Shown: positions 9,212-32,157 of the stretch, piece after piece
Numbering within the stretch: the first letter of the stretch is position 1
How the letters are laid out: each line of letters opens with the position of its first letter
Assembly (NCBI GenBank): GCA_040752915.1
Contig: JBFMHB010000022.1
Location: forward strand, 1 to 43,528
Source of the DNA: Acidobacteriota bacterium
Lineage (GTDB): Bacteria; Acidobacteriota; UBA4820; DSQY01
Length of the DNA: 43,528 nt
Direction: 5' to 3'
Notes under the pieces: model-generated
The model's database searches: none
What the model saw: only the letters and a program-made list of their open reading frames with translations
Told to the model about the DNA's origin: nothing
Position numbers and translations under genes: made by a program

Positions 9212-9216
9212 GAAGG

Positions 9217-9323
9217 CGTTGCTGGGGGCGCGGCCGAAGCCGCTGAGACGTCCGTGGGGAGCACCCCGGCCGGACGGTCCCTTCGAACCTGACCCAGGTC
9301 ATGCTGGCGTAGGGAGCGCAACG
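9217..9323 (+). ncRNA. TPP riboswitch (THI box) in the thiC leader
   Basis: The conserved THI-element cores are present in order: CTGAGA (9242-9247), a variable hairpin (TCCG/CGGA arms with a GGGG/CCCC stem around 9250-9273), GAACCTGACCCAGGTCATGC (about 9285-9304) and GCGTAGGGA (9307-9315). The closing P1 helix pairs CGTTGC (9217-9222) with GCAACG (9318-9323). It lies 58 nt ahead of thiC, the commonest TPP-controlled gene. No U-tract terminator follows, so control is more likely at translation initiation; ACGGTCCCTT occurs both inside the aptamer (9274-9283) and just after P1 (9321-9330), which might allow alternative pairing. Confidence 0.9.
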
Positions 9324-9351
9324 GTCCCTTTCCCCTCCTCCCCTGACCTGA

Positions 9352-10962
<1,611 letters not shown>

Positions 10963-21650: not shown

Positions 21651-22364
21651 TCAGCCGAGGAGTCCGTCGAGGGACGACCCCGGGGGGACCTCCGCCGGAT
21701 CCTCGCCCTTCCGGAAGATCCTGGCCGGTCGGTCGCCCAGGAGGACCAAAGAGGACCCTTCGCGACGGAGAAGGCTGCTTTCCCTCAGACCGACCACGAC
21801 GACCCCCGGATTGGCTTCCAGAAATTCGAGGATCCTTTCCTCCCGAGTCTCGCCGCCATGCCCCGGGAGAGTCGCGTCCGTGTAGTGGGGATTGATCTGG
21901 AAAGGAACCAGGCCCAGCGCGGAGAGGCCGCCCGTTTCCACGATGGGCATGTCGTTCGTCGTCCGAATCGAAGGGCAGGCCACGTTGGCCCCGGCGCTCC
22001 ATCCCACGTAGGGCATTCCCGCGGCCGCCCGCTCCGCGATGGCCTTCCCCAAACCCGTTTCGCGAAGGTGCCTGAGGAGGTGGAAGGTGTTGCCTCCTCC
22101 GACGGCCACCGCATCGGCCCGGGCCAGTTCCTCCAGCGGGCTTTTCACCTCGTGGGCGGACACGACCTCCGCTCCGACCGCCGCGAATCGGTCCCTGACC
22201 TTGGACGCGTAGTCGTCCCAGTGGATGCGTACCCCCGCGAAGGGTACGAAGAACACGCGCCGGGAACCTGCCAGGAAGGACCGGAGGTGCGCCTCCGGCC
22301 AACCGAGGTACGGCTCCCCCGGGTTCGTCGAATTGCTAAGAAGGAGAAGCCGGATGGGCGCCAC
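21651..22364 (-). CDS. pepE: Dipeptidase E (peptidase family S51)
   Basis: Cytoplasmic Asp-X dipeptidase. The 237-residue sequence closely follows E. coli PepE: GGGNTFHLL (89-97), the nucleophile elbow GWSAGANVACPSI with Ser123, TTNDMPI with Asp138, and INPHYTD with His160. The 15- and 22-residue spacings of this triad equal those of E. coli Ser120/Asp135/His157. It starts with GTG, with GGAGG about 5 nt ahead and a -10-like TATACT on the minus strand near 22384-22389. First gene of the leftward run; together with the peptide importer it suggests peptide use. Confidence 0.94.
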   Translation of the reverse strand: MAPIRLLLLSNSTNPGEPYLGWPEAHLRSFLAGSRRVFFVPFAGVRIHWDDYASKVRDRFAAVGAEVVSAHEVKSPLEELARADAVAVGGGNTFHLLRHLRETGLGKAIAERAAAGMPYVGWSAGANVACPSIRTTNDMPIVETGGLSALGLVPFQINPHYTDATLPGHGGETREERILEFLEANPGVVVVGLRESSLLRREGSSLVLLGDRPARIFRKGEDPAEVPPGSSLDGLLG

Positions 22365-22479: not shown

Positions 22480-22502
22480 CCGCCCTTCGGGGCGGTTTTT
22501 TT
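22480..22502 (+). terminator. Perfect intrinsic terminator with no gene ahead of it
   Basis: CCGCCC-TTCG-GGGCGG (22480-22495) followed by seven T (22496-22502): a six-pair stem with the very stable UUCG tetraloop and a U tract. On the + strand nothing is encoded between pepE (which points left) and this hairpin, so it must serve a short non-coding transcript or act as an attenuator of the gene at 22613. Confidence 0.8.
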
Positions 22503-22612
22503 CGGACTGGCCAGAGGCCGTGCGGCTCCGAAGCGTGGCTTGCTCGGACGGCCGTCGTCCCATTGTATAGTATGGGCCACGGGCCGAGTGGGGCCCCGCG
22601 GGAGAAGTCGCC

Positions 22613-24247
22613 ATGTCGCGCACCTTTACGATCCTGTTCGTGGACGACGACATCGGGGAGATTCAGGACGTTGTGGGCGAGTACTTTTCCCGGTCTCGCC
22701 CCGAATGGCGCTGCGCCTTTGCGGACTCGATGGAACGGGCGCGCGAAGCCCTGCTTGCGGAGTCGCCGGACGCCGTGGTGCTGGATCTGGAGCTTTCCCC
22801 GGGCGGCCGGGAGGGACTCGACCTCCTCTACCACGTCCGCAGGCACTCGCCGACCGTTCCCATCATCGTTCTCACCGACATCCGCGACGCCCAGGTCCTG
22901 CGGGACGCGTTCCTCACCGAGAAGGTCTCCGAGGACCTCACGGTGGAGGACGTGGATCCGGAGGCCTTCCTCTTCAAGGAGGAGATCCTCGCGAGCCAGC
23001 GCCTGGACGTCCTGGAGTGGAAGATCGCGAGGGGCCTCCACAAATACGGACGGGTGGCGAACGACACGGGCATCCTCATCACCCACGGCACCGACACGAT
23101 GGCTTGGGGCCTCTGCTACCTCCGCTACGCTCTCAAGGGCCTTCGGGCCAACGTGGCCGTGACGGGCTCCCAGGTCCCGCTCGAGGGATACTTCTCCAGC
23201 TCCGACGCACTCGGCAATTTGAAGACCGCCCTGTACCTCCTCAACCGTCTGAGGCCGGCCCACCTCTTCGCCGTGTTCAACAACGGACAGCGCGTCTTCT
23301 CCGGACGGCTGACCAAGTACCGGAAGTGGGACACGGACGCCTTCGAGGGCCGCCTGGCGGCCAGCGCCAGCCCCGATGGGATCACCTCGGTCCGGAAGGA
23401 CTGGGTCTTCATCCCCTACCCGGACCAGCGGCTCCAGGACCTTCACCTGATCCGGACGGGAGGGACCATCGAGTCCCAACGATCGCCCCATGAGTTCGGG
23501 GCGCTCAAGCCCACGGGCGACTTTGTCTGGAAATACCTCAACGACCCCCTTTCGGGGTTCTTCGTCAATCCGCACCGCCACGACCTTTTCTCTCTGGACT
23601 CCTCCAACCTCTCTTACGAGCATTGGGCCCGAATCGCGATGGAGGTCCAACGGATCGGCGTGGCGACGGCCGACACCCGCTTTGACCCGTCGGTGAAGCC
23701 CGTGTTCGCGAACCCCGTCTTCACGACGCAGGATTACGCCGCCCAGTTCGGGGCCTGCGGGAAGGGCGCCGTCTTCTGCGGGTACGGAGGGGGGAACGCC
23801 AACATCCTGGATGCCTCCGGCCACTCGGTCCTCCCCGCCCTCAGGGACGCCGTGGAATCGGGGAAATTCGTGGCCGTCACCTCTCAGGTTCCCCTCGAAC
23901 CCTACGATGCGGATTACGAAACGGGCCTCACCCTTCTGGAGGCAGGCGGGGTTCCTTGCGGCGATCTGCCCCTGGCCGACGCGCAGTTGAAGCTCAGCTA
24001 CATCCTTGGCCACGAGGAGGAACTCCGGACGGTGGCCGCGGAGGCGGGCCTCTCCCCGCGGTTCCTGGCCACGGCGGCTTTCCTGTCCGGCGTGTCCATG
24101 CGCCGGGCCTACAGCATGGAACTGTTCTGCAGACTGCTCGAAAAGAGGGGGACGCCCCTGCGCATCCACCCGGAGGACCCCTTCGTGGCCCGGCCCTTCG
24201 AGGCGGGCCTGCGGGCCGTGGTTCAGGCTTGCCGGGACCCGAAGTAG
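22613..24247 (+). CDS. Response-regulator receiver fused to a circularly permuted type I asparaginase
   Basis: The 544-residue protein starts with a receiver domain (about 5-128) that keeps the phosphorylation set: Asp11-13, acceptor Asp58 in VVLDLE, Thr88 in VLTD and Lys122. The rest aligns with E. coli AnsA but in a different order: HGTDTM (158-163), TGSQVPL (184-190), FNNGQRVFSGRLTK with the catalytic Lys235, then RTGGTIESQRS (281-291), DSSNLSYEHWARIA (329-342), and last the C-domain (GYGGGNAN 390-397 onward). In AnsA the TGGTI and DSSD segments come first. All catalytic residues (Thr282, Ser330, Thr160, Asp161, Lys235) are kept, so activity is plausible, perhaps under phosphorylation control. 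A -10-like TATAGT lies at 22566-22571; GGAG precedes the ATG by about 9 nt. No histidine kinase is adjacent. Confidence 0.88.
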   Translation: MSRTFTILFVDDDIGEIQDVVGEYFSRSRPEWRCAFADSMERAREALLAESPDAVVLDLELSPGGREGLDLLYHVRRHSPTVPIIVLTDIRDAQVLRDAFLTEKVSEDLTVEDVDPEAFLFKEEILASQRLDVLEWKIARGLHKYGRVANDTGILITHGTDTMAWGLCYLRYALKGLRANVAVTGSQVPLEGYFSSSDALGNLKTALYLLNRLRPAHLFAVFNNGQRVFSGRLTKYRKWDTDAFEGRLAASASPDGITSVRKDWVFIPYPDQRLQDLHLIRTGGTIESQRSPHEFGALKPTGDFVWKYLNDPLSGFFVNPHRHDLFSLDSSNLSYEHWARIAMEVQRIGVATADTRFDPSVKPVFANPVFTTQDYAAQFGACGKGAVFCGYGGGNANILDASGHSVLPALRDAVESGKFVAVTSQVPLEPYDADYETGLTLLEAGGVPCGDLPLADAQLKLSYILGHEEELRTVAAEAGLSPRFLATAAFLSGVSMRRAYSMELFCRLLEKRGTPLRIHPEDPFVARPFEAGLRAVVQACRDPK

Positions 24248-30510: not shown

Positions 30511-32157
30511 ATGTCGAGTGGGAAACCGGGACGGTCGGAGCAGTGGCGCAAGTACCTGGAGGACAGCGCGCACCGGCTTGCGCTGGCGGAGTCGCAGGCC
30601 GGCAGGCTCCAGTCGGAGTCTGGGTCCCGGGAAGCTCTCGAATCTCTCCAGTCGATCTTTCACGATTTCGCAGGTTCCGGGGCCCTCTACGGGCTTCCCG
30701 AGGTGAGTGCCCTGGGGGGAGAGGGGGAGTACCTCTGCACCACCGTGGGCCTCTCTGAGCGGCCCGCAACGCTGGCGGAGGTGGACCAGGTTGCGACCCT
30801 CATCCGGCGCCTTCGAACCGTGTTCCAGCGTGTGATGACGGGCCCGGAGGGACCGAGACCGCCGGCCGATGCCCCCCGTTCGACCCCCCTCCTCCTTCTC
30901 GCCGGATCGCCATCGCCCGAAAGGTCCGCCATGGCGGACTTTCTCCTCAAGCGCGGGCTCCAGGTGGAAGGCCTGGACGGCTTCCGGGCCGCCGTCGAGC
31001 GTTTTCGGGCGGGCCTGCCGGACCTTCTCGCCACCGAGGTTTCGCTTCCCGACGGCACGGGCTTCGATCTCGTCCGGCGATTCAGGGAAATCGAGGGGGA
31101 ACGGTCCATCCCCGTGCTCCTCCTGGGAGCCCCGGAGCTGTTCCACGACAAGGTCGAGGCCATTGCCTGCGGGGCCGACGGGTTCCTGCCCTCCCCCGTG
31201 GACCCGAGCACCCTGTTCCGGAAGTTCCGGATCCTCCTGGGGCGTCGCCGAGCCGCCTCGGGAAGGGTCCTGGCGGTGGAGGACGACCCCTCCCAGGCCG
31301 CGTTTCTCGAGACCACCTTGAAAGCCGGAGGATACCAGGTCCGGATGGTCACGGAGCCCATGGCCTTCGAGCGGGAGATCCATGCGTTCCGGCCCGAGCT
31401 GATCCTGATGGACGTCCTTCTCCCAGGGGTTTCGGGGTATGACCTGGTGCGCTTTCTGCGCCAGGAAGAGGGCTTCTCCACGGTCCCCGTGGTCTTTTTG
31501 ACGACCGAGGGTCGCCGAAGGGCCCAGATTCGAGGCGCCGAGGCCGGCGGGGACGACTACCTCGTCAAGCCGGTCACCCCGGAGGATCTGCTCACGACGG
31601 TGAAATCCCGCCTGATCCGGTATCGGTCCCTTCAGGAAATGATGGACCGGGACGAACTCACGGGACTCCTGGCCCACACTCCGTTTCTTCAGCAGGCCCG
31701 ACTGTGCCTCTCTCGCTTTACGCGCAGGCAGGTGCCTTACGCACTCGTCCTCGTGGAGATCGACGGCATGGAGGCACGGACCCGGGAGGCCGGCGCGCGG
31801 GCCCGGGACGTCCTGATTCAGGGGCTCGCCAAGTACTTGCAGAGGAAGGTCCGCCAGACCGACGTGATGGGACGGTACGGGGACCAGTGCCTGGCTCTGG
31901 TCCTCGAGCACCTGTCCCCCACCGACGCCGTCCGGCTGTTGGACAGGCTCCAGACGGAGTTCTCCCAGATGGACTGGCCGGTGGAGACCGACCGGCGGGT
32001 AAGGGCCTCCTTCAGCGCCGGTGCGGCCATGGCCAGCCCCTCCATGAAGACACTCAAGGCCTGGCTGGACGCCGCCTCGGGGGCGTTGAAGTCGGCTCGG
32101 CTTCAGGGAGGCGGTCGGGTGGCCCTCGCTCCACCGACGGAGGCGCCACCCGGCTGA
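30511..32157 (+). CDS. Multi-domain response regulator: HPt-like, pseudo-receiver, receiver, degenerate GGDEF
   Basis: A 548-residue PleD-like cytoplasmic signalling protein. Residues 1-110 form a helical HPt-like module with His51 in FHDFAGSGALYG. Residues 125-245 are receiver-like but lack the acidic pair, have Glu176 at the acceptor position and no Lys before the last helix, so they should not be phosphorylated. Residues 251-368 are a complete receiver (Glu257/Asp258/Asp259, Asp301, Thr331, Lys353). Residues 375-540 are GGDEF-like, but the signature is RYGDQC (455-460), so diguanylate cyclase activity is unlikely. GGGGGT precedes the ATG. It converges on holA. No kinase gene is adjacent. 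Confidence 0.85.
   Translation: MSSGKPGRSEQWRKYLEDSAHRLALAESQAGRLQSESGSREALESLQSIFHDFAGSGALYGLPEVSALGGEGEYLCTTVGLSERPATLAEVDQVATLIRRLRTVFQRVMTGPEGPRPPADAPRSTPLLLLAGSPSPERSAMADFLLKRGLQVEGLDGFRAAVERFRAGLPDLLATEVSLPDGTGFDLVRRFREIEGERSIPVLLLGAPELFHDKVEAIACGADGFLPSPVDPSTLFRKFRILLGRRRAASGRVLAVEDDPSQAAFLETTLKAGGYQVRMVTEPMAFEREIHAFRPELILMDVLLPGVSGYDLVRFLRQEEGFSTVPVVFLTTEGRRRAQIRGAEAGGDDYLVKPVTPEDLLTTVKSRLIRYRSLQEMMDRDELTGLLAHTPFLQQARLCLSRFTRRQVPYALVLVEIDGMEARTREAGARARDVLIQGLAKYLQRKVRQTDVMGRYGDQCLALVLEHLSPTDAVRLLDRLQTEFSQMDWPVETDRRVRASFSAGAAMASPSMKTLKAWLDAASGALKSARLQGGGRVALAPPTEAPPG

Follow-up and report, generated by a model that had tools for sequence, protein, structure and literature searches.

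We found that a gene in the 43,528-nucleotide stretch of acidobacterial DNA analyzed here (hereafter, the window) encodes a receiver domain joined to an asparaginase-type protein whose N-terminal domain is permuted, with the second half of the canonical domain preceding the first (Table 1). We consider it quite probable that this protein represents an asparaginase-type amidohydrolase module that went through a one-time permutation and carries interchangeable N-terminal partners, with modulation by phosphorylation being conceivable in the window protein.

Table 1. Positions of the receiver–asparaginase gene, its parts, and other elements of the window
Feature	Position	Strand	Basis or remark
ORF, 544 aa, receiver and permuted asparaginase-type amidohydrolase	22613..24247	+	internal stops absent
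Receiver domain, residues 6–125 (Asp11, Asp12, Asp58, Thr88, Lys122)	22628..22987	+	Pfam Response_reg, homologue profile, AlphaFold
Asp58 codon, predicted phospho-acceptor	22784..22786	+	residue comparison; missing in L003, L094, and L095
Predicted helix, residues 131–144, linking receiver to HGTDT strand	23003..23044	+	AlphaFold model
Segment B, second half of canonical N-domain: HGTDT (Thr160-Asp161), TGSQ, Lys235	23060..23392	+	PF00710 profile 65–170 (protein), 54–171 (DNA)
Segment A, first half of canonical N-domain: TGGTI (presumed nucleophile Thr285), DSSN	23438..23662	+	PF00710 profile 2–71
Asparaginase C-domain	23690..24232	+	PF17763 (E = 7.7e-12), best stretch residues 381–474; alignment
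Terminator-like hairpin with seven T	22480..22503	+	~110 bases before the start codon; the flanking genes are divergent
TPP riboswitch (Rfam RF00059, E = 6e-11)	9214..9333	+	just upstream of ORF 9382–10962, which is ThiC-like by eye
Hpt, two receiver stretches, and GGDEF in one protein	30511..32157	+	no link to the permuted asparaginase

Class 1 asparaginases serve as drugs, and their fold is well known. Those of type I (AnsA, Pyrococcus horikoshii PH0066) share PF00710, PF17763, and the HGTDT, Lys, TGGTI, and DSS elements with the window protein, but their order is TGGTI, DSS, HGTDT, TGS, Lys, and C-domain, whereas the two halves are swapped in the window protein and likewise in its relatives. 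An earlier note on this DNA had described the layout as receiver, HGTDT, TGSQ, Lys235, TGGTI, DSSN, and C-domain. The frame, length, and motifs were as claimed, with HGTDT at residues 158–162, TGSQ at 184–187, TGGTI at 282–286, and DSSN at 329–332. In a Pfam scan of the protein, Response_reg matched residues 7–99 (E = 7.3e-9), PF00710 (the asparaginase N-domain) matched with E = 1.2e-20 split over two stretches, and both asparaginase profiles passed their cut-offs (PF00710, 74.3 bits vs 22.5; PF17763, 45.6 vs 34.6). Searched against the DNA of its own genome, PF00710 aligned in reversed order, with profile positions 54–171 at 22994–23350 followed by positions 2–71 at 23441–23653. This reversal is far above chance and identical in all full-length homologues found. 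The rearrangement is limited to the N-domain, giving the order B-A-C with the C-domain at its usual place, and could have arisen if the N-domain was first duplicated in tandem and the outer halves were then lost.

The nearest solved structures in a PDB sequence search were GatD (1zq1) and archaeal asparaginases, not E. coli AnsA. The earlier note had called the match to E. coli AnsA good for each segment; by sequence this stood for the HGTDT segment only (E ~1e-10), and the TGGTI segment was weak when taken alone. The window protein (GALKP) has no counterpart of the residue that we take to be the flap Tyr of AnsA and AnsB, which many canonical relatives and GatD also lack. The NCBIfam type I model TIGR00519 scored 83.4 bits, below its cut-off of 260.5, a shortfall expected for a permuted protein.

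The AlphaFold model built from a 12-row alignment was confident (mean pLDDT 86.4, pTM 0.86), and its best 50 PDB structure matches were all class 1 asparaginases or GatD, with E values down to 5.7e-13, which supports an asparaginase-type fold at the level of prediction. Sequential superposition on asparaginases was poor (TM on target up to 0.61, rmsd mostly 15–20 Å), as expected because the topology is permuted. The protein would be a cytoplasmic amidohydrolase in which Thr285 is the presumed nucleophile, Thr160, Asp161, and Lys235 would form the second catalytic group, and the receiver would be joined directly in front of the strand bearing Thr160-Asp161. All four residues are present, as the earlier note had observed, and are invariant throughout the window's order, whose members also carry SSN or SSD as in type I enzymes. 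Because the protein is the sole such enzyme in its genome and has a DSSN pocket segment like that of type I asparaginases, L-asparagine is the most likely substrate. In the archaeal relative L007 (L007:5995-7554), Ala takes the place of the nucleophile (CGGAIE), and the C-terminus is extended by a stretch containing a weak TSP3-like repeat. Hydrolase activity is therefore not required of every family member, and L007 has possibly lost it.

A scan of GTDB genomes recovered full-length acidobacterial homologues with 55–69% identity, as well as collinear relatives from a Thermoplasmata archaeon, a rumen Bacteroidales, an Ignavibacteriales, a WOR-3 bacterium, and a Tannerella MAG, all with HGTDT before TGGTI; these MAGs represent the phyla Thermoplasmatota, Bacteroidota, Ignavibacteriota, and WOR-3. 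The other loci of the scan had the canonical order with a TGGT-type motif before HGTDT, except for one fragment that ended short of that motif. The permuted gene was present in all nine near-complete genomes of the window's order (six genera, two families). None of the nine encoded a second PF00710 protein, leaving the permuted gene as the only one there. Across Acidobacteriota, the gene was present in 10 of 396 genomes, each belonging to the window's order, and surveys of the phyla of L011 (1 of 396 genomes) and L007 (1 of 194) returned only the genome already known. The family is thus conserved, patchily distributed, and rare outside the window's order. No full-length relative was found among the viral contigs, phages, and plasmids searched, and no relevant defense profile was found either, so that a link to mobile elements or defense was rejected. 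As a separate observation, L009:5001-7000 and L012:5001-7000 were identical across the 2000 bases compared, although they are filed as Ignavibacteriales and Cloacimonadota MAGs from the same sampling site, so one of the two bins is probably contaminated.

A segment order unlike that of any described asparaginase might be taken for an assembly artefact or a decaying pseudogene of an ordinary ansA. We regard this as vanishingly improbable: the order recurs in many independent assemblies across phyla, the frames are intact, and the core is under purifying selection (dN/dS 0.11–0.25, with some synonymous distances near saturation). The same evidence bears out the view of the earlier note that the segments were swapped naturally in an enzyme that looks intact, and the homologues rule out the misassembly that it had named as a refutation.

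We then placed the family in a phylogeny of 13 permuted cores, set back to the canonical order in silico, alongside 65 ordinary asparaginases and 15 GatD sequences from archaea. All 13 permuted sequences fell into a single clade (support 100/100), apart from both GatD (100/100) and the ordinary asparaginases. The clade sits on a long branch whose exact sister is unsure, with bootstrap values not fully settled. Given this single clade, the simplest reading is that the permutation probably arose once, in a common ancestor, and founded a family.

The receiver is a true one, as a profile of six homologues matched PDB response regulators with E = 2.5e-8, and its AlphaFold model consists of alternating strands and helices. 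The window protein has the complete acceptor set, which is kept in five of the ten receiver-bearing members of the order (the window protein, L001, L002, L006, and L093). In L003, the receiver carries D58A and K122R; in L004 and L005, Thr88 is replaced by Cys and Asp12 is absent; and those of L094 and L095 are degenerate domains that have lost Asp58. One genome, G018 (WY4.bin4), encodes two receiver–permuted asparaginase paralogues, of which L006:5998-7623 has the complete acceptor set and L004:6001-7626 has the Thr88 replacement. The receiver also changes at roughly twice the rate of the core (dN/dS 0.33–0.61 vs 0.11–0.25, some synonymous distances being near saturation); the enzyme is therefore the constrained part.

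These observations bear on whether the protein is a direct two-component output enzyme in which phosphorylation of Asp58 would turn amide hydrolysis on or off, a role that the earlier note had proposed and that we hold to be less likely than not. It agrees with the complete acceptor set of the window protein and four homologues, and with the short link between receiver and catalytic strand in the AlphaFold model. Additionally, two permuted proteins from other phyla, L009 and L011, have a long N-terminus with receiver-like motifs and a large upstream gene with kinase-like motifs, both recognized by eye. However, these likenesses lacked statistical support: homology of the N-terminus to the acidobacterial receiver was not supported (E = 0.08), and the upstream gene had no profile or PDB match and a model with a pLDDT of 33. 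The loss of the acceptor Asp in L003, L094, and L095, the Thr88 replacement in L004 and L005, the weaker constraint on the receiver, and the absence of a kinase gene adjacent to the window ORF also argue against this role. As in response regulators with enzymatic output, the window protein has a receiver fold in which the acceptor set is complete; its output is an amidohydrolase, and the acceptor residues are not conserved in close orthologues. Since all phospho-acceptor residues are present in the window receiver, modulation of the enzyme by an unlinked histidine kinase is conceivable. Judging from their residues, the decayed receivers of several sister lineages can hardly be phosphorylated. 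Phospho-gating may therefore operate in the window protein and some lineages, but it is not general, is not a defining property of the family, and is clearly dispensable in relatives.

At the homologous loci in Acidobacteria we found no conserved operon partner, nor, among the loci compared, any conserved neighbor hinting at asparagine metabolism. The LptE–LeuS side was the only neighborhood common to the window and L001 and L002, and the divergent S51 peptidase gene (21651–22364) was not beside the homologues whose upstream DNA was compared (the L001 sequence starts at the gene). The upstream DNA was likewise not conserved among the homologues compared, and an Rfam scan near the promoter returned no RNA element. 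The hairpin in this region (Table 1) has no plus-strand gene called just before it and lacks a conserved counterpart ahead of the homologues compared. Elsewhere, the window contains a TPP riboswitch and a multidomain Hpt–receiver–GGDEF protein (Table 1).

Outside Acidobacteriota, the permuted core occurs with other partners. In a rumen Bacteroidales MAG (L008:5386-7296), a NAD synthetase domain (PF02540, E = 8.9e-44) precedes it, although no further NadE-fused member was present among 300 genomes of that family, whereas the proteins of L007 and L010 have no N-terminal partner and begin close to the HGTDT strand. The idea of the earlier note that the receiver takes up a place freed by the permutation is consequently not supported in that form, as the same N-terminus holds NAD synthetase in L008 and nothing in L007 and L010. 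In L009 (L009:7583-12547) and L011 (L011:7521-12516), the permuted asparaginase shares an operon with a GatC-like gene (a weak match, E = 0.019), a GatA-like amidase gene (E = 2.5e-111), and a gene in which GatB is joined to AspRS in a single protein. The two GatB–AspRS proteins are 60% identical to each other, and a literature search found no paper on such a fusion. Together, the L008 fusion and the two operons suggest an amidase or ammonia module with exchangeable partners. The L008 protein resembles glutamine-dependent NAD synthetase (NadE with a nitrilase-type glutaminase) in joining an NH3-using synthetase to an amidase, but its amidase is the permuted asparaginase core rather than the CN-hydrolase domain of NadE, and it is known from a single MAG.

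These partners raise the alternative that the core is a GatD-like ammonia donor, hydrolyzing glutamine or asparagine and feeding the ammonia to tRNA amidotransferase, NAD synthetase, or another partner. GatD, the archaeal Glu-tRNA(Gln) amidotransferase component whose asparaginase-type core is the ammonia source, is the top PDB sequence match and the second best fold match of the window protein, shares its GAV/GAL loop without the flap Tyr, and would fit the Gat-type operons and the NAD synthetase fusion. It differs, however, in its canonical order, its own N-terminal extension, and SED instead of SSN in the pocket segment, and the NCBIfam GatD models scored 71–75 bits, below their cut-offs of 310–324. 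In the tree, the permuted sequences group apart from GatD; the DSSN segment is as in type I asparaginases; and in Acidobacteria the gene has no linked partner. Moreover, a GatB_N search found GatB in one of the nine near-complete genomes of the order, and it is missing from the other eight and from the window's own genome; cooperation with GatCAB in the window's genome is therefore rejected, and a tRNA-amidation role cannot be transferred to the window protein. We consider an ammonia-donor function unlikely. A broader proposal, still doubtful in our estimate but less so, keeps to the permuted module with exchangeable partners: one ancient rearrangement made a plug-in amidase with a new N-terminus by the catalytic Thr-Asp, and the partner either gates the reaction directly (as a receiver would, making amide hydrolysis a direct two-component output) or uses the ammonia set free, as in the NAD synthetase fusion and the tRNA amidotransferase operons. 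In the reading that we favor, the permutation would likewise have given an amidase module whose N-terminus is close to the active site and to which different partner domains became attached.

Full-text literature searches for permuted asparaginases and receiver–asparaginase proteins, in which most subscription journals were outside coverage, returned nothing relevant, in line with the earlier note, which knew of no characterized protein with this layout. The "circular permutation" match that was examined, an entry in the reference list of PMC10204187, concerned an engineered Ntn-type enzyme, hASRGL1.

Annotation by profiles breaks permuted proteins of this kind into pieces or scores them too low. 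The receiver-intact and receiver-decayed orthologues, two of which are paralogues in one genome, offer natural material on whether a phosphorelay can exert direct control over nitrogen metabolism. As a natural and conserved permutation with interchangeable partners, the family implies that the asparaginase fold tolerates new termini by the active site.
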